A DNA stretch of 63,011 nt. It comes from Phycisphaerae bacterium (GTDB lineage: Bacteria > Planctomycetota > Phycisphaerae > Phycisphaerales > SM1A02). The stretch covers positions 1 through 63,011 of the forward strand of contig PBAY01000008.1 of the NCBI GenBank assembly GCA_002717655.1. The letters are read 5' to 3'. Position 1 is the first letter of the stretch. The number at the start of each line of letters is the position of its first letter. A model generated the notes under the pieces. That model was not told the origin of the DNA, made no database searches, and was given only the letters and a program-made list of their open reading frames with translations. The position numbers were made by a program, and so were the translations under genes. This document shows, in pieces, positions 3,352 through 37,393 of the stretch.

Positions 3352-3363
3352 GCGTCTTGTAGA

Positions 3364-7425: not shown

Positions 7426-7450
7426 ACGAAGAGAAGAACGGAGAATTGAC

Positions 7451-7738: not shown

Positions 7739-7769
7739 TTGGCCTGATTGAGACACGGAAGGAAGCTAC

Positions 7770-9383: not shown

Positions 9384-9396
9384 TGCACGGCGTCGT
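9367..9396 (+). other. Perfect 11-bp stem-loop spanning the groEL2 stop codon
   Basis: ACGACGCCGTG (9367-9377) is perfectly complementary to CACGGCGTCGT (9386-9396), with an 8-base loop that contains the TGA stop. There is no T-run after it. It is the strongest hairpin in the chaperone operon and could attenuate or process the message between groEL2 and dnaJ. Confidence 0.6.
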
Positions 9397-9418
9397 GTAG
9401 TCCATGGAGAGTTCTCCC

Positions 9419-10576: not shown

Positions 10577-10613
10577 GTCACATTGCAATCGGCGCAGCCG
10601 ATGATTGAACAAG

Positions 10614-11234: not shown

Positions 11235-11251
11235 CGCGAATCGAGTTGCTG

Positions 11252-11566: not shown

Positions 11567-11608
11567 CCTACACGTGACAGGTTTACCCCGCTACAGTTGA
11601 CCCGTCAC

Positions 11609-17218: not shown

Positions 17219-17320
17219 AAATTCGAATCAAGCCTCATGCCGCGATGCGGGGTAACATGGTGGCAGGCCTGTATTGCGAAGGATCGCATTGGCCAGCAGT
17301 ATGGAACGAAGGAGTGTCAC

Positions 17321-19764: not shown

Positions 19765-21266
19765 GGTCGGCACGTCAAAGAGGATTTGTGATTGTTGCTG
19801 TTCTTATTGCCGGTATGAGCGGCCTCTGGATTGCAACCAGTCTGCTTTATCTCATGCAGTCAGATGTTCGAGCAGCCGGAATCACGTTGTCCAGAACTCA
19901 GAATCGTTCTCTTGGTCTTTCTGGACTGCGGATGTTGGCGGACGTTCTTGTGGAGCAACGTTCCATTCTGTTGGCCGGTGAGATTCCACAGGTCGAAGAG
20001 CAGTATTCGCTCTGGGATGATGGTGACCGTGAAGCGGTTGTCAGACTTCTTCCGCTTGGTCCTCAGGGTGAGCGGTTGGTTTCTGAAGCAGGGCGAATCG
20101 ACCTCAATCATGCGACGGTGGAAATTCTATCCGAGCTTCCAATGCTCACCTTGGGTCAGGCTCAGGCAATCATCAGTGCGAGGGAGGCACGACCTTCACG
20201 TCGATTCTCCAGTATCCACGAGCTTCTCGAAATAGAGGGAATCGATGTCGTGGATCTGTTTGGAGAACTGGGTGAAGAAAAATCCATGGATCAGACGCTC
20301 GGTGAGCAGGGTGATCTTGGAGAACGCATCGAAGCACGGTTGACAGGTGGTTCTCCTCGGGGACTGATGGATGTGCTGACCGTCCATGGGTTCGAGCCGA
20401 ACCTGCAGCGAAGCGGAAAGCGAAGAATTGATTTGAATGTTCCCTGGTCTGATGAACTTGGCAGGCGAATCCAGGAACGGTTCGGTGAGGGTGCCGCCAG
20501 AGCTCTGGAGCAGGTCTTCAAGGAAACGAGCTTCAATGAGGATGCCCAGATCATTCGGATTCTGAACATGTTCAATGTGCCGGTCGAAGACTGGTCTGAT
20601 CCACTCGATGCGCTGACGACCGTTCCGGATGTGCATGTCGCGGGGCGGCTCGATCTCAATCAGGCATCGGCAGATGCGCTGGAAGCATTGCCTGGCATTG
20701 ACCGTTCCGCAGCCGATCGACTGGTTGCTGAACGGGAATCACTCGATGATCTTGAACGAGCTTCCATCGCCTGGCCTCTGACAAGAGACATTCTTGCACC
20801 GGATGATTACGTTCTACTCGCCAGTCTTTTGACAGTGAGATCCTGGACCTGGCGTGTTCGGATTGCCGCTGGCACGGTTTCTGCGGATGATCCGGAAGGA
20901 CCAATTGATCAGGCTGTTGTCTATGAAGCCGTGATCGATCTGGCGGATCCATGGCCGCGATTGGGTTACCTGAGGGAAATCACGATGTTGCAGACCGCTT
21001 CGCGTCTGGCTTCTGTTCTGGAGTCGGAAAGTTCAGACGAGCTGGAATCCGCGAATCTGTCCGCGATATCTGATGAAGAACTGGATCTGGATGCAACGGA
21101 TTCAGCAGACAGCATGTTTGAGATGGAGGAGCTGGAGTTTCCTGACAAGGAATTTGAGGATCTGGAATCCCGGTTACCTCCTGAGGAAGAGTTGCCGATA
21201 GAAGAAGGACAGAACTCCTCTGCTGAAACTGCGGGATCAGGTCGTGTTGGACGTTGGATTCCATGA
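19761..21266 (+). CDS. gspK: Minor pseudopilin GspK
   Basis: Large minor pseudopilin that caps the pseudopilus tip. The leader MRSARQRG is followed by FVIVAVLIAGMSGLWIATSLL, which lacks Glu at +5, as is normal for GspK. Two helix-hairpin-helix-like segments are visible, RIDLNHATVEILSELPML near residue 113 and RLDLNQASADALEALPGI near residue 295, the DLN..s...L..lPg pattern of the family. The 501-aa length exceeds the common 320-380, partly because of an acidic C-terminal region of about 80 residues rich in Glu, Asp and Ser. ATGA overlap with gspJ. Confidence 0.88.
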   Translation: MRSARQRGFVIVAVLIAGMSGLWIATSLLYLMQSDVRAAGITLSRTQNRSLGLSGLRMLADVLVEQRSILLAGEIPQVEEQYSLWDDGDREAVVRLLPLGPQGERLVSEAGRIDLNHATVEILSELPMLTLGQAQAIISAREARPSRRFSSIHELLEIEGIDVVDLFGELGEEKSMDQTLGEQGDLGERIEARLTGGSPRGLMDVLTVHGFEPNLQRSGKRRIDLNVPWSDELGRRIQERFGEGAARALEQVFKETSFNEDAQIIRILNMFNVPVEDWSDPLDALTTVPDVHVAGRLDLNQASADALEALPGIDRSAADRLVAERESLDDLERASIAWPLTRDILAPDDYVLLASLLTVRSWTWRVRIAAGTVSADDPEGPIDQAVVYEAVIDLADPWPRLGYLREITMLQTASRLASVLESESSDELESANLSAISDEELDLDATDSADSMFEMEELEFPDKEFEDLESRLPPEEELPIEEGQNSSAETAGSGRVGRWIP

Positions 21267-21331: not shown

Positions 21332-22822
21332 GTGAGCGCAGGTGCTGTTGCTGTTGAACTGGGATCTGCAAGGCTTCGTGCCATTGCAGCTGTTCCCGCC
21401 CGGCATGGCATTCAGGTTGTGCGGACGCTGGTAAGCAATGTTCCTGCTGATCTGGATCGAAGCAATGATCAGGCAGTGGGCAGTTGGATCGGTGAATCAC
21501 TTCGAGAAGCTGGATTTCGTCGAGACAAGTGCATGGTCGCCTTGCCCCGTGAAGACGCAGTACTGAAACGTCTGACCCATCCAACATCCGATCGCCATGA
21601 ACTGCCCGACATGACTCGACTGGCCATGGAGCGGGATCTTCCTTTTTCCGCTGAAGATGCGATCATTGATTTCGTCATACTCGACTCGAGTGAAAGTTCC
21701 ACAACGGTTCTGGCAGCGGCACTGCCAGGTGAAACGCTGGCACGTACACATCGAATCATGGGCGCTGCTGGTCTTTCTGTTCAGGGTGTTTCGCTTCGTG
21801 CCTGTGGTGCAGCCGCCATTGCTGATTCGATTGGAGATCCTGATTCCGATGTGATCGCAATCGATCTGATTCCCGGAGATGGGATTGAATTCACTTTCAG
21901 TCGCAACGGTACCGCTCGATTCAGTCGAGCTGCTCGTATTGGCGAATCAGATGAAGATGAAATGGTCTCTGCCGCCATTCGTGAAGCACAACGGACCTGG
22001 TTGAGCCGCCAGATGGATGATGATCAGGCTGGGATACATGCAGGTGTGGTTCTTGGTCCCGATGGTGTCGTGGATCGGGTTGCAGCCAAGGTTGGAAGCC
22101 TGCTCAAGACGCCGATGGAATTGATTGACAGTCATCCTCGAATTGATGCGGGCAAGCATCGTCTTGATCGACATTGGTCGTTGGCGGGTCTCCTGCTGGC
22201 ACAGCAGACCTCCTCAGACATGATCGATTTTGCCTCACCTCGGCAGGCCCCCGATCCACTGGCTGGCCGTCGCAAGGCCGCCGGATATGCAGTGGCTGGT
22301 CTGCTGCTTGTGATTTTTGCCATCTGGACCTTTGGAGGCATGTCGATCAATGCACTTCAAGGCAAGGCGTACTCCTTGGAGGCTCATCAGGGCCGTCTGA
22401 GGCCTGAATTTCTTCGATATACGCGGGACAACTACCGGCTTGGCCATCTGGATCTCTGGTCCTCGGCGGAAGTCGACTGGCTGGCTCATCTTGGGCATCT
22501 CGATTCACTGAGGCCTGCAGCTGCGGATCTGGTACTGGATGAAGTTTCCGGATCCCTTCAGTTTGATGGTGTCATTCGTGACCGCAGCAAGGAGTGGCTG
22601 GCGGAATGGGGGCTTGGCTTGACGCTCAATGGAGAATGTCGAGATCGCGCAACAGCGGATGCCTTTCGTGAGAGGCTGGTTGACAATGCGTCGTACACCA
22701 CATCTTCTGCAGGCAATGACACTGGAGGTGGCAATCGGTTACCACACGGCTTCACCTATCGCCTGATCTCCGACATCGATAATCCAATTGATGCGGAAGC
22801 GCAGACGGGGGGAGATCCCTGA
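21332..22822 (+). CDS. gspL: GspL/PilM-PilN-like cytoplasmic-membrane assembly protein
   Basis: Inner-membrane assembly platform component. The first 300 residues have a PilM/GspL actin-like fold (start VAVELGSARLRAIAAV, a KCMVALPREDAVLKRL strand, then MTRLAMERDLPFSAEDAIIDF, a typical PilM segment). One transmembrane helix lies at about residues 315-336 (YAVAGLLLVIFAIWTF). A periplasmic PilN-like ferredoxin-fold region of about 150 residues follows. It thus combines parts that are separate PilM and PilN in type IV pili, as GspL does. GTG start with AAAGGAG upstream. Its stop overlaps the next ATG. Confidence 0.8.
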   Translation: MSAGAVAVELGSARLRAIAAVPARHGIQVVRTLVSNVPADLDRSNDQAVGSWIGESLREAGFRRDKCMVALPREDAVLKRLTHPTSDRHELPDMTRLAMERDLPFSAEDAIIDFVILDSSESSTTVLAAALPGETLARTHRIMGAAGLSVQGVSLRACGAAAIADSIGDPDSDVIAIDLIPGDGIEFTFSRNGTARFSRAARIGESDEDEMVSAAIREAQRTWLSRQMDDDQAGIHAGVVLGPDGVVDRVAAKVGSLLKTPMELIDSHPRIDAGKHRLDRHWSLAGLLLAQQTSSDMIDFASPRQAPDPLAGRRKAAGYAVAGLLLVIFAIWTFGGMSINALQGKAYSLEAHQGRLRPEFLRYTRDNYRLGHLDLWSSAEVDWLAHLGHLDSLRPAAADLVLDEVSGSLQFDGVIRDRSKEWLAEWGLGLTLNGECRDRATADAFRERLVDNASYTTSSAGNDTGGGNRLPHGFTYRLISDIDNPIDAEAQTGGDP

Positions 22823-23775
22823 TGTCATCTTCCAGGAATCGAATCATCCTGATCGCATTTGGGGGAATCGTCACGCTGTGGTTGTTGTGGACGATCCTGG
22901 GAGCATTGTGGTTGAACCCGGTTGCGGAACTTGAATCTCGTATTCAGAAGTTGATGTCTCAGGTGGAGAGCTACTCCGTTTCAGATGAACGCCTGTCCGA
23001 GGTCGAGGAAAAGACGAATGCCTACATTGATCGGACACTTGGCGGCTCTTTGGAAGAAGTTGATCATCAACTCCGAAGCAGACTGAATCGTCTTGGCGAA
23101 TCTGTCGGACTCAAGGACTTGTCCGTCGGAACCGGAAGAAGTGTGGCGTTGATGTCGCCAGGCAAAAGTGATTTCAAGGGTGCATCTCGTCGTGAACTTC
23201 GCGAGGAGATCGACTTTGTTGAAGTTGAAGGACGTCTCTCGGGAGTCACGGACTGGCCAGGTGTCCTCGAATTGCTTGACCGATTGGACAGCGCAAGTTG
23301 GCTCAACAAGATCGAGAGTGTTCGATTGCGGGAGGCTGGCCGTCAACTTCAGGTGAGCATCCAGTTGCGGACGCTCTATGTTCCCGGAAGATCGCCATCC
23401 GTCGAACCGGTGGATCAGTGGTCCGAGGAACGCATGGCGCCGATGGCAGCACTTGCTGGGCGCAATCCATTCCTGTTGCCGCAACCACCGCCGAAACCAA
23501 GACCGCCGCAGCCAAAGCCGACTCCAAAACCAACGCCCAAACCAACTCCTCCGGACTGGCAGATCACCGGTGTCATGGGTATCGGCGGCAGTCCAGAGGT
23601 CTGGATTCGCAACCTTCGTTCAGGCAAGGTGAGGCGTTTGGCGGTGGGAGATCGGATCGCTGATCTGGTTCTGGAAGCGATTGAGGGGGACAAAGCCCAC
23701 TTTAAGGACGGAGAATCGCTGGTTTCGGTCCAGGTTGGCCAGTTGTTGAAGGACAGGACCCCCGTTCACAAGTAG
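22822..23775 (+). CDS. Fusion of GspM/PilO-like and GspC/PilP-like (HR) domains
   Basis: A 317-aa bitopic protein. It has a short cytoplasmic end, a transmembrane helix at about residues 8-31, a coiled-coil (about 34-95), and a PilO/GspM-type ferredoxin-like domain (about 110-195, with VEVEGRLSGVTDWPGVLELLDRLDSA matching the PilO pattern). A Pro/Lys/Thr linker near residues 219-242 (KPTPKPTPKPTPP) follows, and then a C-terminal domain of about 75 residues. That last domain (WQITGVMGIGGSPEVWIRN...VRRLAVGDRIADLVLEAI) fits the homology region of GspC or PilP, which contacts the N0 domain of the secretin. Joining the two would physically link platform and secretin in one chain. It sits directly before the secretin gene. 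Confidence 0.72.
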   Translation: MSSSRNRIILIAFGGIVTLWLLWTILGALWLNPVAELESRIQKLMSQVESYSVSDERLSEVEEKTNAYIDRTLGGSLEEVDHQLRSRLNRLGESVGLKDLSVGTGRSVALMSPGKSDFKGASRRELREEIDFVEVEGRLSGVTDWPGVLELLDRLDSASWLNKIESVRLREAGRQLQVSIQLRTLYVPGRSPSVEPVDQWSEERMAPMAALAGRNPFLLPQPPPKPRPPQPKPTPKPTPKPTPPDWQITGVMGIGGSPEVWIRNLRSGKVRRLAVGDRIADLVLEAIEGDKAHFKDGESLVSVQVGQLLKDRTPVHK

Positions 23776-23825: not shown

Positions 23826-26800
23826 ATGGGCATTGTTTGTGGTTGTTCGTCAGTGAGAGGTTTCGTCATCGTTGCGAGTCTGCTCCTGGCAGGGTTTGCA
23901 ACCGTATCTGGACAGGAACCAGTCGCTTCAACATCGGAGCCTCGGGAGGAGACTGCATCACTGCAGTTCAACTTCAAGGGTGCGCCGTTCGATCAGGTTC
24001 TCGATTACTTCTCACGCGCCACCGGCAAGCCGGTCATCCGGGAAGCAGCCGTTCCTGATGGCACGTTGGATTTCCTTTCGCCTGAAACCTACGACCTGGA
24101 TGGTGGACTTCGTGTCCTCAACATCATTCTTCAATCCAGAGGCGTCATGCTTCGGATCGAAGATGACATGCTCTATCTCCAGTCGCTGACCGAGATGCAA
24201 CGCGAGAACGTGCCGACGTTCATCGGAGAATTGCCGGCGGACATCACGAATGAAAAAATCGTGACGATGGTTCGGCCACTGGAGTCGGCCGTCGCGCAGA
24301 CGCTTGCTGATCGATTGAAGGAGCTCGTAGCAAGCTACGGTTCCATCACGGCGATGCCCGGACAAAACTCGATCGTCATCACCGAGACCGCCTCACAGGT
24401 ACGTCGTCTGCTGAAGATCATTGCGGAACTTGATCAACAGGCGCCAGATTCACTGATCGAAATCATTCGTATTCGGAATGCGACGGCCAGTGATCTGCTT
24501 GAGCCGCTTAAGGCATTGTTGAAGACCAAGACCATCAAGTACATGTTCGACAAGAAAGGGAACATGAAGCAGGTGGAAGAAGACTCCTTGTCGGGTCTCA
24601 ACATCACAGCTGACAATCGCTCGAACAGCATCATCGGCAAAGGACCTCGAACCGGTCTGGACAAGTTGAAGGAGATCGTTGCTGTTCTGGATGTTTCCGG
24701 TGGCAACAGTCGAAGCGTTCGAACGCTGACTCTTGCAACACTTTCTCCGCAGGTGGCGCGTGATCAGATCAACAATCTGTTCAAGACGCTGCCCCCGGAA
24801 CGACGTCCGGCCGTGATGGTCCGGGCGGGCGAGCCCGCCATCACCGTGGTGGCCGAGCGGGCAGTTGTCGATGAGGCGGTGGCGCTGATCAATGAACTGG
24901 ATGGGGGCTCGACGGTGACCACCTCCGGCGGACTGGTTCTCGAAGCGGTCTCCCTGCTTCAGGGGCATCCTGATGCGGTCATCGAGGCACTTCAGGAGCT
25001 GCTGAATCAGCGTCAGAAGTCCCTGGTGCGTCTTGTGGCCGGCCCAGATAACCGAAGTCTGCTTATTTCCGGGCCTGAGGCGGATGTGGCAGCGGTCGCA
25101 TCCATCATTCCGGTCCTTGACCGAGCCGATGGCATCGAGCAGGAAATCCGGATGATCCGTATCGAAGGGCCTGCTTCATTGAATACCGCAGCAGTTCTCG
25201 CTGCTACGACGTCTCTTCATGTCCAGCGGCTCCGTGAGGACAGTCGCCTCCAGGTAACCCCCGACTCCGTCGATCCCCGACTCATCACGCTGGTGGGCCC
25301 GCGTCGTGAGGTCGAATCCTGGATCGAGCTGGTCAAGCTGGTTTCAGACAACCAGCCAAGTCAGCGAGAGACTCGGACGTACACCACTAACAAGGTAAGA
25401 CCATCGGAACTGGTCGAGCCGCTGCGTTCCATGACGGCCCAGTTGATGGGTGAGCCTGATGGCCCTCAGGTCGAGCCCCCCAGTATTCAGGCCATTGATG
25501 CGCTGGACACGTTGATCATTTCAGCGGCCCCAGACCAGTACGCCGTCATTGACCAGTTGCTTTCCACGCTTGATCAGCAGGATCCAAGTGATTTCCGTAT
25601 TCAGGTAATCGATGTTTCCGAGATCAAGGATCTTGCAGAAGTCATGGCTCGTGCTCGAGCGGTCTGGGAGCAGCTTCGTGGTGACGATGACCTTGCCATG
25701 CCTGACATCGAAGTGGATGCAGACGCAGGCCGGCTTCTGGTCAGTGGTCCGCAGCAGGCTGTCTCTCGTTACGAGCAGGCGATCGCGACCTTCCGCAGGC
25801 TGGAGGCTCCAGGGCCTGATTTGACCATGATCCCGTTGAAGCATGCCGCGGCTGCGGAAGTTGCGTCGTATCTGGATCAATTTGTCTCCGAGGAGCAGGG
25901 CCTGCTTCGTGCTGGCAGCCAGAAGGCGCCGACGATCGAGGTGATTGAACGAACCAATACTCTTGTCATCGGAGGCAATCGTGAGCAGCAGCAGCTGATC
26001 AACACGATGGTGAAGTCGCTTGATGTTGATTCTGCAGGTGAGCGGGCGCCGCTGCGAATTCTTCAGCTTCAGGTGGCGGACGCCGCCGGCCTGGCCAGAA
26101 CCTTGAATCAGCAGTACGAGGCTCGAAGCGTTCAGGATCGTGCGGCTTATCCCGTACGCATTACGGCCGATCCAAACACCAATTCACTGTTTGTTTCCGC
26201 GCATCCTACGCTCGTCGATGAGATCGACAGCATTGTCGCCAATCTCAATACGGTTGATCGAGTGGATCGTGATGGTCGGGAAATCCGCATCTTCCCCCTT
26301 CGTGTCGCTCGCGCTGAAGAGCTGGCTCGAACCATCGATGAGATGTTCCCTGATCCGCCAATGCCACTTGATCGCAGAGGGAAGCCTGTTCCATCGCTGC
26401 AGGAGCCTCGTGAAGTCGTGGTTCGTGCTGATGTCCAGACCAATTCATTGATCGTCGAGGCACCTGTTGCACGCATGGCCAGCTTCAAGGAACTGGTCGA
26501 GCAGCTTGATCGACAGAAGGTGCTGGAGGAACGTGAAGTACGTACGTATCAGCCATTGCATGCTGATCTGAATTCAATTTCGACCACCTTGAAGCAGTTG
26601 GCCAGCAGTGGCTCGCTTCATCAGGATTCCAGTGATCGTCGCGGCACCATCACCGTCGCGACCGAGCCGGTTTCCGGAACGCTCATCATTTCAGGGCCTG
26701 CAGCGATCTTCACCAAGGTCGAACAGGTGCTCGAAGAACTTGATGTCAAGCGGGCCACGCCTGCCACGACACTTCGCTTCTTCGCGCTCAGGCATGCTGA

Positions 26801-29800
26801 TGCCGATCGTCTTGCGGACACGCTGCGCAATGTTCTGCTCGTGCGGATGAAGGAAGAGATCCCCGGAGGTGATTCCGAAGTCGAATCACTCCTCAACGTC
26901 TCTTCTGATGAGAAGACCAATACGCTGATCGTTTCAGCTCCTGTTGCGTTGATGCCGGTTGCAGAGAGCCTGATTGAGCAGCTCGATACGCCAGCAGCGG
27001 CGCGATCGCGACATGCGGTACGGATCAGGCCGCTGGACTTTGCCGATGCCTCGACGATCACCAGTTCGCTGGCGGCAGCCTTGCCGGAACTGACCAGTAC
27101 GACGACCGGCGAGCCGGTTGATGCAAGATTGATTTCAAGCCGCGGTGCCAATGCCTTGATCATGGTCGGCCTGCCGGAGGATCTCGAGCAGGTAGAAGAA
27201 CTGGTTGCCACACTTGATGCCAGACCTTCAATGGATGCCATCAATGCCAAGACCTATGTCCTTGAGCATGCCTCGGCAGACCGTCTGGCGCCACTGGTCG
27301 AGCGTCTTCTTGCTGATCAGCAGGCGAGTGATCCTCGTCTGATCATGGAGCGGATTCGCCGCAGTCGAGGTCAGGTTGATCTCACGCCTCCTATTCGAGT
27401 GGAAGCTGATGAGCGAACCAACAGCCTGATTGTTTCCGGGCCAACCGTCACCGTGGCACTGGCCGAGACACTGATTCAGCAGTTGGATGTCCCCGATGAG
27501 CGGGCGACCCATACGTGGAAGACCTATACCCCGATCACGACGGATTCAGTCACCCTTACGGCAGCCGTTCGACAGATCCTGAATGAAACTTCGCCATCCG
27601 GTGCCAGTGCAGATCTGTCCATGACGCCCGAGCCATTGAGTGGGGCGGTTGTGGTCACGGGCCCGGAAGATCAGGTTGATCGCGCCATCGAGATGCTCGC
27701 CTCCTGGGACAAGTCTGCTTCTCCGACGCCGAGAGTGGAACTGCGAATTCTTGATGTTGCCCATGGCGATGCCGCAACGACGGCCAGAGTACTCACGCCA
27801 CTTCTTCGAGACCGCTCCCGTTGGCCGCGAGATCTGCAGGCCATGGCTCGAAGCGGGCGATCCATGCCTGAGCCAAGCGTCACCGTTGATGCGTCTGCCA
27901 ATCGAATTCTGGTCAGTGCACCGGCGGCGATCGTTTCGCTTGCCGTTGATCTGTTGAAGGAGCTTGATCGTCCCGGCACGGCTTCTGGAACGGTTGATGT
28001 TCAGGTGCTGGCCTTGCGGCAGGCGGATGCTGCTGCAGTCGCCAAGACACTTCAGGAATCAATCAAGGCTCGCAGCAGGGTCCGGCCTGGCGAGGCAGGT
28101 CCTGCAGTGTCAGCACAGCCCTCCGGTAACGCCATCGTGGTAACTGGTACCCCGGATCAGATTGCAGAGCTTCGTAATCTTGTTTCGCAGCTGGACGAAG
28201 GCTTCGCTCCGGATCAGACTCAGGTTCGAACCGTCTATCTTGAATACGCCCGCGCGGAGCGGGTCGCCCCCATTGTCGAGCAGTTGCTTGTCAAGGAAGT
28301 CAGTCCAGAGCTGACCTGGTTCAATTCGCGTCGTGGCCTGCCCATGCCGGAGACGGAGGATGTCCGGGTGGTCGCTGACCCTCGACTGAATGCGGTGATC
28401 GTTGCGGCTACTCCAGCCATTCTTTCAGTCGCCGAGCAGATGGTCGCGCAGCTTGATGTTGATCCGAATCAGGTTCATGCCGCAGCCATGCGTCGTGTTG
28501 CCGTGATGCAGGTACGCAATGCGGATGCTCGTGAACTGGCTGCCAGCCTTGAAGCGTTGTTTGCTGAAAGTGGTACGGCCGACCCTCCCGCAGTAAGGGT
28601 TGATGCTTCAAGCAATACCTTGCTGGTCCGTGGGGATGAAACTCAGCTCGAGCGAATTCAAGAAGTGGTACGCGAAGTTGATGCAGCTACGCTCGGTACA
28701 AGCCGTCAGGTTCATCTGGTACCGATCGATCCTTCCCGGGGCAGTGCGGCTGACATGGCTGAATCGCTGCGTCGCATGCTTGATCGTGGTACGGGAAGCC
28801 GGGTCGAGGTCATCAAGCTGGAAGACCTGCTGAAGCAGTCTGCTGAGGAATCCGGCGAGGGTGATCAGAGCCGTGGTGGCGCATTGCCGTTGCCTGCGGC
28901 CATCGCTTCTTTGGGCTTTGGCCACTATTCCATGAATCGTTACCCACAGTTCATGCTCGATCAGCCTGAAGTTTCGCTCGCGGTGGATCCTGCAACGAAC
29001 AGTCTGGTGATCGTGGGATCTGACCGTGCGGTCAAGAATGCACGCGCGGTTCTGGAACAACTTGTTCAGCAGACGCCCGCTGCGCCTGGCACGGTACGTC
29101 GCATTGAACTCGGGTCCGCGGCGGATGCTGGCGCACTGGCTCAGATGTTGCGTCAGACGATGCAGCAGATGACACCTTCAGGCGGCGCTCGTGGTGATCT
29201 GATGCGGCGAACATCACTCGTCGTGGATCAGCGTGACAATGCGTTGGTATTCGTCTGCAATGATGCCGACTTCAGAACCATCACCCAGTTGATCGGGGCG
29301 TTCGGGCGGAGCTCCTCCGGAGATGCCACGGTCGTCAAGGCCTACCCGTTGAATTCAATACCCGCGGATCAGGCCGTGCGAAGCGTCAATGGACTGCTTC
29401 AACGTGATGCCCGAGGCCGAGGTCAGCAGGGCTCACGGATGCGTTCGCTGGCCTTGCGTCAGCTGGGCAACGAAGAAGCAGTTGAAGCCGTCTTCAGTCC
29501 TGATCAGATTTCAGTGATTGGTGATGGCGGGAACAATACGATCATCGTGATGGCACCAAGTGAAGCGATTGGCTTCATTGATCAATTCATTGAGCTGATC
29601 GACCAGTCTCCGGTGAGCCAGCTCGCATCATTGAAGTTGTTCAAGCTCAAGCATGCTCGCGCAGCCGATCTTGGTCGCACCCTCCGCAACATCTTCCAGG
29701 TGAGGCATCGCAATCTGCGTCGTGCAGGTGCCGGCCAGGGGCTTCTTGAGCCTGAATTCGGGTCCGATGCTCGCATGAACATGCTGTTGGTCACGGCCTC

Positions 29801-32800
29801 GGCACGGGATCTCAAGGAAGTCGACTCGCTTCTTGATCAGCTTGACCAGCCCATGACCGACACGACGCTTCCTCTGGAGTCAGTCGTTCTCAAGTCGGCA
29901 GTTCCTTCTCGTGCAGTCAAGTTGCTTGACGAAGCAGTGTTCAGCGTCAATCCGGCTCGCCGGCAATCAGCGATGGTTGTTGCTGATGATGCCTCCGGAA
30001 TCATTCTCGTTCGCGCAGATGAGGAATCCATGAGCGAGATCCGACAGGTACTCTCCGAGATCGATCGCGATCCAACGAATACCTTCGATGTTCGAACCAT
30101 CACTCTGGATCGAGCTGATCCGAATATGGTTTCCGAAGCCTTGAAGCAACTCTTTGATGATCGTGCCCGCATGGGGCGGGGTGGTCGCAAAGGTGATGGC
30201 GCTAGCCGAGTCACCATTGTCGCCAATCCTGCGACGCGTCTCCTGATGGTTTCAGCTTCTGATGAGGATTACGCTCAGGTCGAGAAGCTTGTCAAGCAGC
30301 TTGACAGCATCGAAGCGGCCGAGTCGATCAGCATCCGGGCGATTCCATTGAAGAATGCCAAGGCTGAGGAGATTTCCGAAACCGTCCAGGGCATGGTGAT
30401 CCAGCTGGAGTCCGGAGGTCCTACGCCCTGGTGGTTCGAGCAGCAGTCTCGCCGTCAGTTGCAGGGTCGCATGGCGATCTATCCAGATACTCGGCTCAAT
30501 GCACTGGTCGTTTCTGGCTCCGATGACTCCATTGAGATGGTCGAGCGTATCGTCAAGGTGATGGATGCAAATGTGGATCCTGATACCGAGCGAAAACTCA
30601 AGGTCTATCGAGTCGAGCATGTGCCCATCGAAATGCTTGAGGATGTGGTTCAGGAGATGTACGGCGGTGAGCGTCGCCGTTGGTGGCAGCCGGCCACCAA
30701 CAATGATGTCAGCATCACCACCGATCGACCGCGTCGCGCCCTGATCGTCGCGGCCTCGTCGCAGAAGCACAAGTCCATTGCGGCTTTGGTCGCCGAGCTT
30801 GATCAGGAGCTTGAAGGATCCATTGGCGAAGTCGTCGTCCTGCCGGTGAAGTATGCGGAAGCCTCCGATGTCGCTCAGATTCTGTCCCAGTTCATGCAGC
30901 AGCGATCCCGTACGACAGGACGTGAACTCAGTTCTGTCGTGATTCCAAGCCGCAGCTCCAACAGCATCATCCTTTCTGGTTCAGATGAAGATCTGCCGAT
31001 GCTTCGTGATCTCGTCAGCCAGGTCGACATCGACAATGCAGCTGGAGATCGTTCCATTGAGATCATTGCCATCCAGGAGGGTGAGGTCGATGTAATCGCA
31101 GGCATCCTTCGGGAGCAGTTCGGTCGTCGTGGGGCCAATCAGGTCATGATCACGACCGTTCCGCAGACCAGAAGTCTGGTTCTGAATGCCCCGGCTCGCG
31201 AGATGGAGAAGGTCAAGGGTCTGATTGTCCAACTGGACACGCGTGCACCTGAAGATGAAACCTTGATTCGCACCTTTGCGCTTGATTCGGCCAGAGCCCG
31301 GAATGTCGTTGGCATTCTCGCCGACACGCTTCAGCTTGATGCCACAGGCGAAGCCCGTGGTGTTGCGATTCGGCTCGAGCCGGATCAGCCTGCTGTTGAA
31401 GTGAATGCCCGCGTCGTGGCTGATGATCGATCCAACAGCGTGATTGTCACCGCGAACGAGGAATCGTTGCCAGTCATCGAGAAGCTGATCCGCCAGCTTG
31501 ATGAAGAGCCCGCGGCGAGTGAAGTCGAGTATCGAATCTTCGATCTCGAGCACGCCCTGGCTGAGGACGTCCGCTGGAATCTGTATGACATTCTTCCTGC
31601 CATCGGCGATCCGAGCCCTCGGTTCACGATCAATCGAATGGAAAATCAGCTGATCGTTTCGGCCACGCCGGATCAGTTCAAGCAGATCGAGATGATCATT
31701 CTTGAATTCGACAAGCCGTCTTCCGGCAATCGGAGTACCAAATTCATTCCGCTGGAATTCGCTGAAGCCGAGAAGGTCCAGGAAGCGCTGACCGTCTTCT
31801 ATGGTCCTTATGCCTTGGATGCCGATTCACCTGCAAAGTTGAACGTCCGGATCGTCGCTGACCCGGCGACCAACAGCCTCGTCATTTCGGCGGAGGAGAG
31901 TGAATGGGACTCACTCAATGCACTGATTGAAGAGCTGGATGCGGAAGAGTACGACTCCTCATTGCAGCTCAAGGTCATTCCATTGACCTATGCCGATGCC
32001 GTTTCGGTTGCCAGGGCGATCAATGAGGCATTCCAGCAGCAGGTACGTGGTGGAGGCAAGAAGTCCGAGGAGAATCGCGGTTCAGGCAATGCCCGCGATG
32101 GCGGTCGTTCTGAAATGGAAACACCCACCGTGCTGGTTCAGGCTGAAGACTGGGTGCGTGCATCCGCTGAGCCGGTCACCAACTCGGTCGTGGTCTCGGC
32201 CACGCTCAAGACGCTGCGAAAGATCGAGACGATCGTCGGTCAACTGGATATCGCTGATCATGCCGGCCTTCCGCCGGCTCGAGTCATTCCAGTTCGAACC
32301 GCCAATCCGGAGCAGCTGGCGAGTTCCGTTCGCACGCTCTACGCCACACCTGGTCGTGAAGGCCGGGTCAACCTCCGTATCGTTGGTGATGTCGAATCGT
32401 CGACGTTGATCGTCCGGGCGCCCGAGGAAGATTTCCTTCAGATCATGGCCCTTGCCAAGGCGATTGAAGAACATGGCGATGATGGCGGCATGGGGGTCCA
32501 TGTCATCCGCTTGAAGGATGCGCCCGCAGCAAGAATCGCTGATGCCATTCGTTCCACGTATCAGACCCGTGCCAAGTCATTGAAGGCCGCGTTCCAGATT
32601 GAGGTGGATTCCGCTACCAACAGTCTGGTCGTTGCCGCAAGCGCAGATCTGGTTCAGGAAATCAAGGACACGGTTTCCCAGCTCGACGGCATGGCACCAG
32701 CTTCCGGACTCGGTATCTTCATCATTGAACTGCAGCACGTCGATTCAGACGAAGCCATTCGAGTCATTCGAACCATTGGTCTCGACAAGCCTCAGCCAGA

Positions 32801-35800
32801 GGGCTCGGTCATGTGGTTGCTTGGAGAGCCGGTCAAGATCTCTCCTCTTGAGGGTCGCAACGCTGTGGTGGTTGTCGCCTCACCTGCAGATGAAAAGACG
32901 ATTACCGGTATCTTCAAGGCGCTTGATGCAGAGCCTGAACTGGCGACGGCCCGAATGGAAATCGTCCCATTGCAGAATGCCGAAGCCGAAGCCATCGCCT
33001 CGATTCTCGAGGAGATTCTGGCTCCTGGTGAGCAGCAGGTTGATACGCCCATGGCCCGTGCCATTCAGGAACAGATTCGCCGTTTGTCCGTTCAGCAGGA
33101 TGGAGTCAATAGTCCGGACTTCGGTGTGGACCTGACCCGGCCGATCCGCATCATCGCACACGAAACGCGCAATGCCATTCTGGTCAGCTCGACTGAAGCC
33201 AATGTTGCGGCTGTTGTCGAACTGGTTGCGATGCTTGACCAGCTTCCGGTGACTGAAGCTGTGGTCGTCCGCTTGTTCCCTCTTGAGAACATCGCAGCTG
33301 ACGACTTTGCGAGGATCGTCCGCACGCTCTTTGATGAAGGCAAGGATCTCGGAAGAGTTCCAGGTGCAGAGGTGGCCGGTGTGCCGGTTGGTTCAATTGG
33401 GCGAGCGTTGCTTGATGAAGTGGCGATTGCCGTGGATGAGCGAACGAATACGGTCGTGATCGCAGGTAAGGAAGAGTCGGTTGCAGCCGTCGAGGTAATT
33501 TCGGCTCGGTTGGATTCAGATCTTCAGGCTGGATGGGTGGAGCCTCGCCTGGTTCCGCTGACCTGGGCGGATCCCGGGGATCTTGCTCAGACTCTCAATC
33601 GTGTTCTGGTCGAGGGTGCGACGGATCTTCCTCAGGCCGGACCGCTGCAGCAGCAGGTTGGTCGACTTCGTGTGGCTCGCATGGAAACAGCTCGCGTCAT
33701 CGAATCAGAAGTCTTCCAGCCGATGAGCCGATTGATCATCGAGCCGCAGGAACAGATGCGAGCCTTGATGCTGGTCGGTACGCCCATCAATCTGGAACTG
33801 GTTTCCGAACTGGTCGCCATGCTTGATGTCGAGGCGGCTTCGCCGGCCTCCACCGTCCGCATCTATCCCGTCCAGCACGCTTCGGCCGCGAGACTTTCTG
33901 CAACAGTAGAAAACCTCTTCCGGGAACAGGTTTCATCAGGAGCGATTCGCAAGGAAGACCGAGTCATCATTCAGGCTGATGAGCGGACCAATTCATTGGT
34001 CGTCACGACCAGCATTCGCAGCTTCACCATCTTCGAGACCTTGCTTGATGCACTGGACTCGAAGATGGCGCCCGAACTGCAGGAGATCAAGCGGCTTCCA
34101 GTCACGAATGCTTCAGCCTCACGGCTGTCCACCATGATTCAGCGATTGATGGACGCACGTGTCGAACGACTGCGTCTGGTCGAACCCGAGACCGCGGATC
34201 TCCAGCGTGCAACGATCATCCCGGATGAACGGACGAATTCGCTGGTGATTGCAGCCGGCAACGATTCCTATGACGTCATCAGGATGCTGGTTGAGCAGAT
34301 GGATGAAGCCAACGCCGTTCAGGACGGCCTGGTTGAAGTAGTCGGAGTAGGGGATGCCAATCCCGATCGTCTTGCTTCGGCGATCAACTCGATCATGGAG
34401 CGTCGTTATGCGGAATTGCCCGCTCGACTCAAGAACCGTCGTCAGCCGTTGATTCTTACGGATCCGCGTACGAGCAGTCTTCTGGTTTCAGCAGACCCTG
34501 AGGATCTGTCCGACATTCAGGCGCTGGTCGAGCAGTTGATGGCCACGCCTCTTGCTCAGGCGGTTGATCTTCATGTGATTCCCGTTGCCGCAGGATCCAA
34601 TGCGGAGCGACTTGCACCTCGAATTCAGCAGTTGATGCGGGATCGCCAGCAGTCGCTCGGCGAGGCCGCGACTCCTTCGGATCGCGTTTCCGTGACCGGT
34701 GAGACCGCCAGCAACAGTCTCATCGTGGCGGCCAGTCAGGAAAATCTCGTGATTGTCCAGGACATGGTTTCCCTGCTGGTTGAAGCGGAGGCGGAAAGCA
34801 CGGCTGGCCGTGGTTTCGAAGTTCTGGCCTTGCGATCAAGTTCAGCTGAGGAGCTCGTTGATCTGCTTGATGATCTGTATGTCGAAGAAGCCAACCGCAA
34901 TCGCGGATCCGGGACCGTCCGGGTGACGGCCGAGCCCCGGTTGAATTCGATCGTCGTGAGTGCGCCTCAGAATGACATTGATGAACTCAAGGTTCTGGTT
35001 GCTCGTCTTGATGGTGCCAGGCCTGCATTCGTGATCGAGATTCGTCACTTCCCGTTGAAGTCGGCCAATGCATTGGAAACCGTCAGTCTCATTGAAGATG
35101 TGCTTTCAGGTCGCGGTCTTGGATCACGTCGGCGTTCAACGGAACAGACGACGGTGCTCCGGTATGTCCGGGAAATCGAAGACGCCATCGGCGAGAGCGA
35201 GTTCCAGGTCAGTTCGGCACTGCGTGAATCCATCAGCCTGACTCCGGACATCCGTACCAACACGGTCATCGTCCGGGCGCCGCGGGAATCGATGGAACTC
35301 ATTGGCCGGATGATCCGGGATCTTGATGACTCTTCGGAAGGTTCCAAGAACATCCGGATCTTCAAGCTCAAGAATGCAGACGCACTGGCCATGAAGCAGG
35401 TCCTGACGGATCTCTTCCGTCTCGATGAAGGCGACGACCTGCTGGTCCTCAAACCACGCGATGCCGCCATTGCTGCTGCACCCATGGAGGGCATGGCTGC
35501 TCCTGCTGTCGAGGGCGTGGTCGGGGGCACGGAGTTGACGGCAGTCCCTGATCCTCGTCAGCAGCTTGCGATCACGGTCGACAGTCGTACCAACAGTCTT
35601 CTCGTATCCGGCAGCCCGGCCTATCTTGATCTGGTTTCGGATGTGGTTGATGAACTGGATGCCGTGGATGCGAATGAGCGTGAAACGTTCGTCTATCAAC
35701 TTCGCAATGCCACGGCGGAGAGTGTGGCTTCGGTTCTGGGTGATTTCGTCGAAGAGGAGCAGCGCAAGCTGGTTCAGACTCTTGGTGGTGATCAGCTGGG

Positions 35801-36854
35801 TTCCGCGGCAAGATTGCTGGAGCGTGAGATTACGATCCGCGGCGACCAGAAATCGAACACCGTCCTTGTTTCAACCAGCCCTCGATACATGAATCAGATC
35901 GAGCAGGTCATCAAGCAACTCGATGTCGATCCGCCACAGGTGCTGATTCAGCTGATGCTCTGTGAAGTCACCCTCGATGGCGGCTTTGACTGGGGCGTCG
36001 ATCTGGATGCTTCCGGAAGTGTCGGCAGCGTCTCGGTCGGAGGCATGTATGACCTGGTAGCCAGTTCCATGGCGCTTGGTGCACCGACGCTTTCGGTCGC
36101 CAGCAGCGACTTTGATGTCATGCTCAAGGCACTTGAGAAGCAGGGAAGGCTCAACATTCTGAGCAATCCCTCCATCATGACGGCGAACAACGAGCCGGCC
36201 CAGATCAATGTCGGTGAGACGATCTATGTTCCAACGTCGTCGCAGACCTTCGATACCGGCGTCGTCAGTGTTCCGCTTGAGGCCAAGGAAACAGGCGTCA
36301 TTCTGAACGTGACACCGTCGATCAACCCTGATGGCTTCGTCCGCATGGATGTTCAGCCAACGCTTTCCAGAATTCTTGAAGGAAGAGATGAGCCGGCAGT
36401 CGGCGTCACGACCCCTCGTATTCTGCAGCGGACCGCTGACACGACCGTGACGGTCTATGACGGCCAGACGATCATCATCGGTGGATTGATCTCGGAGCTT
36501 TATGAGTACACGGAGGATTCCATTCCACTTCTTGGTGACCTTCCTTTGGTCGGGTTCCTCTTCCGGGGCGAAAAGGAGGAGCTGGTCCGAAACGAGCTGG
36601 TGATCGTCCTGACGCCACATGTGATCAAGAGTCCTGCGGATCATGATCGAATCGAGAAACTCACCAATGATCAGGTTGATCTGATCTCCCTGCCTCCGAA
36701 GCTGCTGGAGCAGATTCGCAAGGCACGCTTCGACTCCGAGGGCATCTTTGAAAAGGACGGTTATCGTCTTAAGCTGAAGGAGCTTCTTGACGTGGAAGAG
36801 GATCAGGGCGTGAAACCGAGTGAAGATAGTGATGCGCCTCGAGGTGAAGAGTGA
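23826..36854 (+). CDS. gspD: Giant type II secretion secretin (GspD-like), 4342 aa
   Basis: Outer-membrane secretin for the type II system, about six times normal length. Residues 1-29 are a signal peptide (FVIVASLLLAGFATVSG). About 45-140 is an N0/STN-type domain. From residue 144 to 4037 run about 47 tandem secretin_N (N1/N3, KH-like) domains averaging 83 residues, each with a strand-helix-'TNSLIVSA'-helix-'LD' pattern. Residues about 4038-4265 form a single secretin barrel domain (GRLNILSNPSIMTANNEPAQINVG, DGQTIIIGGLI, PLLGDLPLVGFLF, NELVIVLTPHVI). An acidic tail of about 75 residues could be a pilotin-binding S-domain. GGAGG lies seven bases before the ATG. The frame is continuous with no stops or shifts. 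The downstream lipoprotein overlaps it. Confidence 0.95.
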   Translation: MGIVCGCSSVRGFVIVASLLLAGFATVSGQEPVASTSEPREETASLQFNFKGAPFDQVLDYFSRATGKPVIREAAVPDGTLDFLSPETYDLDGGLRVLNIILQSRGVMLRIEDDMLYLQSLTEMQRENVPTFIGELPADITNEKIVTMVRPLESAVAQTLADRLKELVASYGSITAMPGQNSIVITETASQVRRLLKIIAELDQQAPDSLIEIIRIRNATASDLLEPLKALLKTKTIKYMFDKKGNMKQVEEDSLSGLNITADNRSNSIIGKGPRTGLDKLKEIVAVLDVSGGNSRSVRTLTLATLSPQVARDQINNLFKTLPPERRPAVMVRAGEPAITVVAERAVVDEAVALINELDGGSTVTTSGGLVLEAVSLLQGHPDAVIEALQELLNQRQKSLVRLVAGPDNRSLLISGPEADVAAVASIIPVLDRADGIEQEIRMIRIEGPASLNTAAVLAATTSLHVQRLREDSRLQVTPDSVDPRLITLVGPRREVESWIELVKLVSDNQPSQRETRTYTTNKVRPSELVEPLRSMTAQLMGEPDGPQVEPPSIQAIDALDTLIISAAPDQYAVIDQLLSTLDQQDPSDFRIQVIDVSEIKDLAEVMARARAVWEQLRGDDDLAMPDIEVDADAGRLLVSGPQQAVSRYEQAIATFRRLEAPGPDLTMIPLKHAAAAEVASYLDQFVSEEQGLLRAGSQKAPTIEVIERTNTLVIGGNREQQQLINTMVKSLDVDSAGERAPLRILQLQVADAAGLARTLNQQYEARSVQDRAAYPVRITADPNTNSLFVSAHPTLVDEIDSIVANLNTVDRVDRDGREIRIFPLRVARAEELARTIDEMFPDPPMPLDRRGKPVPSLQEPREVVVRADVQTNSLIVEAPVARMASFKELVEQLDRQKVLEEREVRTYQPLHADLNSISTTLKQLASSGSLHQDSSDRRGTITVATEPVSGTLIISGPAAIFTKVEQVLEELDVKRATPATTLRFFALRHADADRLADTLRNVLLVRMKEEIPGGDSEVESLLNVSSDEKTNTLIVSAPVALMPVAESLIEQLDTPAAARSRHAVRIRPLDFADASTITSSLAAALPELTSTTTGEPVDARLISSRGANALIMVGLPEDLEQVEELVATLDARPSMDAINAKTYVLEHASADRLAPLVERLLADQQASDPRLIMERIRRSRGQVDLTPPIRVEADERTNSLIVSGPTVTVALAETLIQQLDVPDERATHTWKTYTPITTDSVTLTAAVRQILNETSPSGASADLSMTPEPLSGAVVVTGPEDQVDRAIEMLASWDKSASPTPRVELRILDVAHGDAATTARVLTPLLRDRSRWPRDLQAMARSGRSMPEPSVTVDASANRILVSAPAAIVSLAVDLLKELDRPGTASGTVDVQVLALRQADAAAVAKTLQESIKARSRVRPGEAGPAVSAQPSGNAIVVTGTPDQIAELRNLVSQLDEGFAPDQTQVRTVYLEYARAERVAPIVEQLLVKEVSPELTWFNSRRGLPMPETEDVRVVADPRLNAVIVAATPAILSVAEQMVAQLDVDPNQVHAAAMRRVAVMQVRNADARELAASLEALFAESGTADPPAVRVDASSNTLLVRGDETQLERIQEVVREVDAATLGTSRQVHLVPIDPSRGSAADMAESLRRMLDRGTGSRVEVIKLEDLLKQSAEESGEGDQSRGGALPLPAAIASLGFGHYSMNRYPQFMLDQPEVSLAVDPATNSLVIVGSDRAVKNARAVLEQLVQQTPAAPGTVRRIELGSAADAGALAQMLRQTMQQMTPSGGARGDLMRRTSLVVDQRDNALVFVCNDADFRTITQLIGAFGRSSSGDATVVKAYPLNSIPADQAVRSVNGLLQRDARGRGQQGSRMRSLALRQLGNEEAVEAVFSPDQISVIGDGGNNTIIVMAPSEAIGFIDQFIELIDQSPVSQLASLKLFKLKHARAADLGRTLRNIFQVRHRNLRRAGAGQGLLEPEFGSDARMNMLLVTASARDLKEVDSLLDQLDQPMTDTTLPLESVVLKSAVPSRAVKLLDEAVFSVNPARRQSAMVVADDASGIILVRADEESMSEIRQVLSEIDRDPTNTFDVRTITLDRADPNMVSEALKQLFDDRARMGRGGRKGDGASRVTIVANPATRLLMVSASDEDYAQVEKLVKQLDSIEAAESISIRAIPLKNAKAEEISETVQGMVIQLESGGPTPWWFEQQSRRQLQGRMAIYPDTRLNALVVSGSDDSIEMVERIVKVMDANVDPDTERKLKVYRVEHVPIEMLEDVVQEMYGGERRRWWQPATNNDVSITTDRPRRALIVAASSQKHKSIAALVAELDQELEGSIGEVVVLPVKYAEASDVAQILSQFMQQRSRTTGRELSSVVIPSRSSNSIILSGSDEDLPMLRDLVSQVDIDNAAGDRSIEIIAIQEGEVDVIAGILREQFGRRGANQVMITTVPQTRSLVLNAPAREMEKVKGLIVQLDTRAPEDETLIRTFALDSARARNVVGILADTLQLDATGEARGVAIRLEPDQPAVEVNARVVADDRSNSVIVTANEESLPVIEKLIRQLDEEPAASEVEYRIFDLEHALAEDVRWNLYDILPAIGDPSPRFTINRMENQLIVSATPDQFKQIEMIILEFDKPSSGNRSTKFIPLEFAEAEKVQEALTVFYGPYALDADSPAKLNVRIVADPATNSLVISAEESEWDSLNALIEELDAEEYDSSLQLKVIPLTYADAVSVARAINEAFQQQVRGGGKKSEENRGSGNARDGGRSEMETPTVLVQAEDWVRASAEPVTNSVVVSATLKTLRKIETIVGQLDIADHAGLPPARVIPVRTANPEQLASSVRTLYATPGREGRVNLRIVGDVESSTLIVRAPEEDFLQIMALAKAIEEHGDDGGMGVHVIRLKDAPAARIADAIRSTYQTRAKSLKAAFQIEVDSATNSLVVAASADLVQEIKDTVSQLDGMAPASGLGIFIIELQHVDSDEAIRVIRTIGLDKPQPEGSVMWLLGEPVKISPLEGRNAVVVVASPADEKTITGIFKALDAEPELATARMEIVPLQNAEAEAIASILEEILAPGEQQVDTPMARAIQEQIRRLSVQQDGVNSPDFGVDLTRPIRIIAHETRNAILVSSTEANVAAVVELVAMLDQLPVTEAVVVRLFPLENIAADDFARIVRTLFDEGKDLGRVPGAEVAGVPVGSIGRALLDEVAIAVDERTNTVVIAGKEESVAAVEVISARLDSDLQAGWVEPRLVPLTWADPGDLAQTLNRVLVEGATDLPQAGPLQQQVGRLRVARMETARVIESEVFQPMSRLIIEPQEQMRALMLVGTPINLELVSELVAMLDVEAASPASTVRIYPVQHASAARLSATVENLFREQVSSGAIRKEDRVIIQADERTNSLVVTTSIRSFTIFETLLDALDSKMAPELQEIKRLPVTNASASRLSTMIQRLMDARVERLRLVEPETADLQRATIIPDERTNSLVIAAGNDSYDVIRMLVEQMDEANAVQDGLVEVVGVGDANPDRLASAINSIMERRYAELPARLKNRRQPLILTDPRTSSLLVSADPEDLSDIQALVEQLMATPLAQAVDLHVIPVAAGSNAERLAPRIQQLMRDRQQSLGEAATPSDRVSVTGETASNSLIVAASQENLVIVQDMVSLLVEAEAESTAGRGFEVLALRSSSAEELVDLLDDLYVEEANRNRGSGTVRVTAEPRLNSIVVSAPQNDIDELKVLVARLDGARPAFVIEIRHFPLKSANALETVSLIEDVLSGRGLGSRRRSTEQTTVLRYVREIEDAIGESEFQVSSALRESISLTPDIRTNTVIVRAPRESMELIGRMIRDLDDSSEGSKNIRIFKLKNADALAMKQVLTDLFRLDEGDDLLVLKPRDAAIAAAPMEGMAAPAVEGVVGGTELTAVPDPRQQLAITVDSRTNSLLVSGSPAYLDLVSDVVDELDAVDANERETFVYQLRNATAESVASVLGDFVEEEQRKLVQTLGGDQLGSAARLLEREITIRGDQKSNTVLVSTSPRYMNQIEQVIKQLDVDPPQVLIQLMLCEVTLDGGFDWGVDLDASGSVGSVSVGGMYDLVASSMALGAPTLSVASSDFDVMLKALEKQGRLNILSNPSIMTANNEPAQINVGETIYVPTSSQTFDTGVVSVPLEAKETGVILNVTPSINPDGFVRMDVQPTLSRILEGRDEPAVGVTTPRILQRTADTTVTVYDGQTIIIGGLISELYEYTEDSIPLLGDLPLVGFLFRGEKEELVRNELVIVLTPHVIKSPADHDRIEKLTNDQVDLISLPPKLLEQIRKARFDSEGIFEKDGYRLKLKELLDVEEDQGVKPSEDSDAPRGEE
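24255..35936 (+). repeat. Array of about 47 secretin_N domains within gspD
   Basis: Manual segmentation by the recurring pattern 'hydrophobic strand (IRIFPLRxA-like), helix, linker, D/E-x-xTNSLIVSA strand, helix ending QLD' gives 47 units over 3894 residues, with an uncertainty of about two. Units are strongly diverged: the conserved core is the N-S/T-L/I-hydrophobic-V-S/x-A/G motif and the terminal Leu-Asp. Several units carry long loop insertions (for example near 28785-28970, 32040-32160, 33600-33740, 35100-35220 and 35430-35560). The repetition is clear at protein level only. No long DNA-level identities were noticed, so the duplications are old. Confidence 0.9.
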
Positions 36855-37393
36855 TTCGAACTCTGGTCGTTGTGATGCTGGCTGTCGCATCCAGCGGTAT
36901 TCTTGGTTGCGAGAATTCCCAGCGATCAAGTCGTCGTATGTCTCCTCCCCGGCCGGAGGCGACCGTGATGAAGGTGCTTCGTGACGTTAATCCGAATCGA
37001 ATGACGTTGACCGTCGCCCCCAAGGCTGAAGATGTCGAAGGTGATGGTCAGGCGGACCTGATCAAGGTGTCGGTGGTCATGTTTGATGAGCCTCGCCCCG
37101 AGCCTGTCATCGTCCCGGGTTCCTTCCGCTTCGAAGCTGTTCCGATGGAAGGGTCCGAAGTCGAGGATCTCAGACTCCAATGGGAGTTTGATTCGGCTGA
37201 AGCCCGCAGGGCGGAAGGCCCGACGATGTTCGGTCTTCCTGGATACCGATTCACCCTGGATGTTCGGCGTCAGGCTCGGGATCTGCCTCCCATGGTGGTC
37301 AACATCATCGGCCATTTCTATCCCGCCAATGGTGGTACGCCTGTTACCTGCAGGCCTGATCAGAGGCTTGTTCGCCTCGGAGCGGCTCCTTAG
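36851..37393 (+). CDS. Lipoprotein coupled to the secretin (pilotin candidate)
   Basis: A 180-aa predicted lipoprotein with a signal peptide ending in the lipobox GILGC (Cys20), followed by a Ser/Arg/Pro-rich linker and a globular part with no family recognised by eye. Its GTG start overlaps the gspD stop codon (GTGA), so it is translationally coupled to the giant secretin. Residues +2 and +3 after the Cys are Glu-Asn, not Asp, which would be compatible with outer-membrane sorting in systems that follow the E. coli rule. Position and lipidation make it a good candidate for a pilotin that targets the secretin, but it does not resemble GspS or PulS in sequence as far as can be seen. Confidence 0.7.
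   Translation: MIRTLVVVMLAVASSGILGCENSQRSSRRMSPPRPEATVMKVLRDVNPNRMTLTVAPKAEDVEGDGQADLIKVSVVMFDEPRPEPVIVPGSFRFEAVPMEGSEVEDLRLQWEFDSAEARRAEGPTMFGLPGYRFTLDVRRQARDLPPMVVNIIGHFYPANGGTPVTCRPDQRLVRLGAAP

Follow-up and report, generated by a model that had tools for sequence, protein, structure and literature searches.

Klebsiella PulC binds the N0 domain of the secretin through its HR domain, and secretin and HR domain together are described as extending about 20 nm into the periplasm (PMC6882859). The PilQ secretin of Thermus thermophilus possesses six N-rings, a number called unusual in its description, and these span most of a wide periplasm (PMC5745081). In Planctopirus limnophila (class Planctomycetia) the periplasm can be greatly enlarged, and crateriform structures keep the cell membrane attached near the wall of the cell (PMC5394234). 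Among the literature matches listed, with subscription journals and preprints outside the scope, there was no paper on giant secretins, and the word secretin is missing from the main text of a survey of proteins larger than 5,000 residues (PMC11573180). Such proteins already stand in databases, some entered as "type II secretion system protein D" and some as secretin-like.

The window analyzed here, 63,011 nucleotides long, is an entire contig of a Phycisphaerae bacterium whose genome of 3.07 Mb is assembled in 55 contigs. It carries a secretin gene of the gspD type in one frame (Table 1). We consider it likely, with a probability of roughly 0.6, that this protein, a type II secretion system (T2SS) secretin with a predicted N0 domain, 47 N-domains and a barrel, assembles as a stack of about 48 rings bridging an unusually wide periplasm. 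A sequence-only reading of the window had described a giant secretin of 4,342 residues with a signal peptide, N0, about 47 N-domains and one barrel, and Pfam, our own HMM and the unit table bear this out, with the signal peptide as apparent and N0 as predicted. Pfam Secretin_N matched 39 stretches, where about ten had been set as the least for such an array, our own HMM found 45 units, and two more were added by eye, which gives 47. Neighboring units in the unit table of the 4,342-residue secretin abut with almost zero linker, the longest being unit 20 (127 residues). The secretin barrel (PF00263) scored 161.6 bits against a cut-off of 27.5. Fold searches with structure models of the protein confirmed single domains, and the model of the C-terminal part matched GspD chains; the multi-domain matches, mostly with an rmsd of about 10-50 Å, are uninformative on stacking. 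Pfam also reported weak matches to eukaryotic KH families, which are expected given the shared fold.

Table 1. Features of the giant secretin locus in the window and of the two-gene pairs in relatives (positions of the latter refer to their own loci)
Feature	Position	Strand	Basis or remark
gspF	16025..17218	+	Pfam T2SSF; NCBIfam GspF 319 bits, under cut-off 424
gspG, major pseudopilin	17237..17845	+	Pfam T2SSG 66.3 bits; NCBIfam 84.3, just below cut-off 88.85
Pseudopilin in gspH place	17865..18569	+	Pfam N_methyl, residues 152-175 of the longer ORF 17433-18569, within which the start codon was picked by eye
Pseudopilin in gspI place	18566..19030	+	NCBIfam gspI E 1.1e-4, under cut-off
gspJ-like pseudopilin	19027..19764	+	Pfam T2SSJ E 3.8e-5, under cut-off
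gspK-like	19761..21266	+	Pfam T2SSK E 3.2e-5 and HHH_3
gspL/PilM-like	21332..22822	+	Pfam PilM_2 E 1.6e-5, under cut-off
M/C gene, likely inner-membrane anchor of secretin	22822..23775	+	sequence, co-occurrence with giant
Giant secretin gene (gspD-type), 4,342 aa	23826..36854	+	one uninterrupted frame
Apparent signal peptide, residues ~1-30	23826..23915	+	translation inspected by eye
Predicted N0 domain, residues ~41-121	23946..24188	+	
47 contiguous N-domains (Secretin_N), residues 131-4036	24216..35933	+	Pfam, own HMM, by eye
Units 13-16	26997..27977	+	four-unit block missing from congener G002 (L231), P0003-P0005
Unit 20, 127 aa, long loop	28692..29072	+	gene-split point in related lineage
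Units 28-29	30813..31247	+	two-unit block missing from G002 (L231), P0003-P0005
Secretin C-domain (barrel)	35934..36629	+	Pfam Secretin, residues 4102-4268
Lipoprotein gene, candidate pilotin	36851..37393	+	lipobox by eye; 4-base overlap with secretin gene end
L080 split pair	gspD1 3-4409, gspD2 4406-11635		stop/start overlap of four bases
L079 split pair	gspD1 2-4282, gspD2 4322-11578		39 bases between

The NCBIfam equivalog for GspD (TIGR02517) scored 1183.7 bits against a cut-off of 351.35, a total inflated by the repeats, with its best stretch at residues 3807-4276. The models for PilQ (TIGR02515, 452.5 against 284.35 bits) and SctC (TIGR02516, 407.8 against 238.45 bits) are exceeded as well, with totals that are likewise repeat-inflated and lie below the GspD score. 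A Pfam scan of the full-length protein at E 0.001 gave no AMIN domains, and pilMNOP neighbors were not found; F and pseudopilin genes adjoin instead, and only the L gene is PilM-like. The secretin barrel, a predicted N0 of the GspD type and an operon with pseudopilins and F all agree with GspD, whereas in place of the three N-domains that follow N0 in GspD there are 47. On sequence grounds the giant is a variant form homologous to GspD, not an ordinary GspD.

The gene had also been placed in a "complete" type II secretion operon. The conserved T2SS operon was indeed recovered, but GspE was not found in it and the adjective proved too strong. Elsewhere in the genome there are six full-length matches of the GspE/PilB type, none of which (0/6) is over the GspE cut-off. 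Genes F, G, I, J, K, L and M/C were present in all 19 upstream loci of relatives that were compared and H in 17 of them. The lipoprotein has a homolog downstream in 16 of 19 loci of relatives, and all 16 homologs show a hydrophobic start with a lipobox-like cysteine (eight by a script pattern, eight by eye). After the lipoprotein gene, positions 37509-39233 encode an apparently secreted protein of 574 residues, with zero Pfam matches at E 0.001; among 19 downstream loci, homologs at this position are found in three same-genus loci only. Ordinary secretins of 818 and 873 residues are situated in a similar gene order in two genomes (G044 and G045), so that the giant resembles a lengthened version of a T2SS secretin. 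In G028 (C122, C146) and G024 (C15) the giant gene lies apart from the remaining T2SS operon genes.

The sampled order, Phycisphaerales going by the names that the nearest relatives bear, comprised 61 genomes, the window's own and 60 relatives, and giant secretin frames of 1,840-5,086 residues, some of them clipped at contig ends, were found in 34 of the 61. No giant frame was found in the other 27, including two of the window's genus; three of these 27 have either the M/C gene on contigs of fragmented assemblies (G019 and G029) or the secretin in three frames (G051). Two genomes of the window's genus more than 90% complete, G001 and G004, show neither a giant frame nor an M/C match, and the system thus seems to be present or absent within one genus. 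In the phylum sample (392 genomes, 31 of them from the same order or closer) at least 14 genomes have a frame of more than 2,400 residues, and those listed all belong to these 31; outside the order the longest secretin frame among those listed has 1,491 residues. A second, separate group of secretins exists in the order, mostly of about 1,470-1,730 residues and with a barrel match of 522-525 bases (e.g. G013:C141, G038:C47, G039:C6 and G043:C68).

Proteins were collected with the C-terminal 483 residues as query against targets of comparable length (best 120 of 372 relatives) and with a protein of a different family within the order as query (best 120 of 597 relatives). In 239 distinct proteins, the window's included, length follows 82.7 residues per unit plus 442 (r 0.992), and therefore the number of N-domains accounts for protein length. 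These proteins have 24-66 units after gap filling (22-64 detected). The N0 profile matches 226 of them, and the remaining 13 start in mid-array. Comparable proteins in related genomes, which the sequence-only reading had anticipated, are thus documented both by the 34 genomes and by this set of 239.

An assembly artefact or a decayed gene could be suspected since the parent genome is split into many contigs and the secretin of one relative, G051 (L224, G051:C1:2222900-2242400, minus strand), lies in three overlapping frames of 2,191, 1,696 and 1,495 residues. However, intact frames occur in many assemblies, single-contig chromosomes (G014 and G046) among them, which supports the earlier view of a true single frame. 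Together with the giant frames of 34 of the 61 genomes, the length law in 239 proteins and the purifying selection on all 47 units presented below, this led us to reject the artefact, whose probability we consider practically negligible. The case of G051 was also tried as a second example of the two-gene form described below, and rejected, because its frames overlap, none of them opens with a signal-peptide-like sequence, and simple frameshifts, be they of the assembly or of the gene, seem to account for them.

The M/C protein, with parts named by eye, is made up of a membrane helix, a coiled coil with an M-like part, a proline-rich linker and a C-terminal HR-like domain, the pattern of which resembles (also by eye) the HR domain of GspC. 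In a profile search against solved structures both the whole protein and its HR-like end gave unrelated matches only. The proposed docking to N0 rests on gene order and on this pattern, because the HR-like domain matched none of the solved HR domains. Weak matches to T2SSM were found in three and to T2SSB in two of 17 members of the M/C family and in none for the window's protein, and Pfam gave zero matches when run on the M/C proteins of G044 and G045, whose operons have short secretins. An M/C match with E 2e-6 or better is present in 37 of the 61 genomes, namely in all 34 carriers of the giant and in G051, G019 and G029; weaker matches in G013, G044 and G045 accompany short secretins, and 21 genomes have neither M/C nor a giant frame. 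The gene adjoins that of the giant in 23 of 27 pairs situated on the same contig. Of the other four, G024 has the two genes 16.6 kb apart, G033 has the two-gene form, in G042 the secretin frame overlaps M/C and was missed by the threshold, and the last is G051. In eight of 35 genomes the two are on separate contigs, and in G028 a different gene follows M/C, the giant with its N0 being elsewhere. From its sequence and its company, M/C is likely the inner-membrane partner of the secretin. Its linker, measured from the conserved motif that precedes it, has 32-48 residues in 23 genomes and does not correlate with the length of the secretin frame, which in the same genomes ranges from 818 to 5,086 residues (r -0.09; r 0.17 in the 21 genomes with frames above 1,400 residues, where for G051 1,519 residues, one of its three broken frames, were used). 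If N0 is bound here as in Klebsiella, it would stay near the inner membrane, and with a linker that is short and does not scale the secretin itself would have to fill the periplasmic gap.

The barrel-region tree has 80 rows, the named scan having kept 79 loci of 553 confirmed stretches. The window's secretin falls within a group of 20 giants labeled mostly Phycisphaerales or Planctomycetota. A second giant group of 15 rows holds all ten giant-branch loci labeled Verrucomicrobiota (L091-L094, L097, L098, L100-L102 and L127, which are MAGs with depositor labels) and five others, with Phycisphaeraceae and Planctomycetota among the labels. Eight of these ten loci have at least 35 detected units, one has 24 and one is clipped by its contig. 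Both giant groups, together with Phycisphaerae secretins of 10-13 detected units (one of 26) and Planctomycetia secretins of 5-7, make up a branch of 51 rows with support of 100/100, separate from ordinary secretins and with some members clipped by contig ends; the splits that join the two giant groups inside it have weak support (85/35). Short Verrucomicrobiota secretins are placed elsewhere in the tree, so the giants with this label may reflect exchange across phyla, mislabeled records or shared descent from long ago. One locus labeled Cyanobacteria (L088, RHKP01000005.1) has a giant secretin of the Phycisphaerales group and is probably a mislabeled or mixed MAG.

Array lengths are graded from ordinary to giant in Phycisphaerae (L104, L106-L108, L118 and L128 with 10-13 detected units, L104 and L106 being clipped by contig ends) and in Planctomycetia, where seven secretins (L121-L123, L126 and L129-L131, L123 clipped by its contig) of 1,270-1,968 residues have 5-7 detected units. 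By eye, L107 and L128 seem to open with an N-domain, without N0. It had been proposed that the giant matches the enlarged periplasm of planctomycetes, and these seven Planctomycetia secretins of the same branch, with only 5-7 units, speak against such a match. One could speculate that the crateriform structures of Planctopirus limnophila are another answer to the same spanning problem.

In a relative of 49% identity (P0012) the 48 reciprocal best unit pairs, which include one filler unit, all fall along a single diagonal, with a mean score of 194 against 49 across all pairs. By this pairing, unit positions are orthologous between genera, and recent tandem amplification of the whole array was rejected for this reason. 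In four distant relatives (P0061, P0102, P0113 and P0121) 10-11 of 17-20 reciprocal best pairs are on the path, and in P0113 (10 of 19) the diagonal is gone over most of the array. A weak periodicity of two units is present along the array (lag 2, z 4.06, 20 lags tested), and the likeness of units two apart suggests growth by pairs. Length differences among near relatives consist of whole units: P0003-P0005 and G002 are without 328 residues, i.e. units 13-16, and 145 residues, i.e. units 28-29, while P0008 is without units 12-15, 28-29 and 31-35 (320, 146 and 395 residues). Among 17 proteins aligned to the window's, one is without a large gap, four show clean whole-unit gaps (P0003-P0005 and P0008) and the other 12 have gaps broken into pieces of 0.5 to 6.6 units, so that whole-unit length change, as read from these alignments, is shown for near relatives only.

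In comparison with congener G003, pN/pS was 0.06-0.50 in all 47 units (median 0.22), 0.15 in N0, 0.17 in the barrel and 0.48 in the signal peptide and C-terminal tail; with G002 the 41 shared units gave 0.12-0.53 (median 0.25). These ratios are upper values because synonymous sites are near saturation. The low ratios in all 47 units mean that the entire array is maintained by selection. Conservation of units is uneven along the array (49-94% identity), and this, with the position-specific identity of the units and the weak similarity to KH families, would suit a binding scaffold, in which KH-like N-domains at specialized positions bind substrates, peptidoglycan or the pseudopilus and no continuous tube is formed. 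We consider a scaffold improbable, since loss or gain of whole units among near relatives that keep the rest would be odd for specialized sites and the length law leaves no space for additional domain types.

In one lineage the giant is encoded by two genes, found in L080 and L079 (the contig of L079 is the same as in G033); L232 is listed with them as a split-gene location. The first gene, gspD1, comprises N0 and the units preceding unit 20 and ends inside the first half of that unit, and gspD2 has its own signal-peptide-like start (by eye), resumes with the second half of unit 20 and carries the barrel as its last domain. When proteins about as large as gspD1 were searched for, 29 matches came up, the query's own among them. 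Eight of these (P0245-P0252, L079 and L080 included) share one end point within the first half of that unit; seven are 1,689-1,716 residues long, with 17-18 detected units and pairwise identities of 62-94%, and one has 1,483 residues. The remaining 21 end elsewhere, many being marked partial, with P0271 as the first frame of G051. The second gene was looked at in two sister loci (L079/G033 and L080).

The split bears on the possibility that rings are made by about the last three N-domains only, while the remaining 44 serve as a flexible chain of beads, a leash or sheath linking pore and inner membrane over a variable distance. Such a chain would be in accordance with the structure models, two monomers with pTM 0.44 and 0.35 whose inter-domain arrangement is unreliable, and with Thermus PilQ, the closest precedent, which is described as flexible between rings (PMC5745081). 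On the other hand, units follow one another directly, each of them is constrained, and their positional identity is kept at about 50% sequence identity. The cut in unit 20 breaks the covalent chain, and a leash would survive this only if the two half-domains joined up again. That the cut is fixed within one domain, and that each part apparently is exported on its own, fits poorly with a covalent leash and favors the ring stack. We therefore think the leash unlikely, to a lesser degree than the scaffold. The sequence-only reading had envisaged a ring stack longer than 100 nm: whole-unit changes, the short linker and the cut in unit 20 back it better than a flexible sheath, and stacking itself remains a deduction, the models being monomers. 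Ring formation, stacking, docking of N0 and a length above 100 nm are all what we infer.

In the ring stack which we prefer, the barrel would sit in the outer membrane, as in Klebsiella PulD, and the HR-like end of M/C, a protein whose linker would have a short reach that does not grow with the secretin, would keep N0 close to the inner membrane. Each unit would form one ring of about 2.5-3 nm, estimated from the approximately 20 nm of PulD N0-N3 with the HR domain, and 44 extra rings would then add an estimated 110-130 nm. Inside, the lumen would serve as a guide for the GspG pseudopilus and for folded substrate. Unit number would be a length setting encoded in the gene, with whole units lost or gained in evolution, and in the two-gene lineage the rings of gspD1 and gspD2 would hold each other where the divided unit 20 re-forms between them. 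For the wider proposal we see even chances: Phycisphaerales, and perhaps by acquisition some Verrucomicrobiota, would possess the longest secretin conduit known, with 24-66 rings and about 70-180 nm, in which domain number per polypeptide sets the span of the T2SS, and in one lineage two separately exported proteins would interlock via a split ring domain.

If the rings stack, the tube would be, by estimate, several times longer than the secretins in the literature compared. As unit number varies by whole units between related species, the way in which a secretion machine is fitted to periplasm width would become directly accessible to genetics, and tomography of different species could test whether domain number sets the spanning distance. 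With the two-gene version, nature itself has put to the test whether an unbroken chain is required for the stack. The mostly uncultured Phycisphaerales gain a concrete, visible target for tomograms.

Compared with known systems, the giant shares with ordinary GspD the N0 fold, the N-domain fold, the barrel, a T2SS operon (F-K and L/M-type genes) and the NCBIfam GspD assignment. It differs from ordinary GspD in having 47 N-domains instead of three and 4,342 residues instead of about 650, in an operon without GspE, in a C-like HR domain (recognized by eye, without a profile match) fused to an M-like protein, and in a gene that is in two parts in one lineage. Surplus N-rings, which are predicted for the giant, are shared with Thermus thermophilus PilQ, where they are said to let the complex span a wide periplasm (PMC5745081), although PilQ has its six N-rings in 757 residues and serves a type IV pilus and DNA uptake (PMC5745081). 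Also close are the Planctomycetia (5-7 detected units) and Phycisphaerae (10-13 detected units) secretins of the 100/100 branch, which have the same barrel family and longer-than-usual arrays but several-fold fewer domains than the giants, and whose size is between ordinary and giant.
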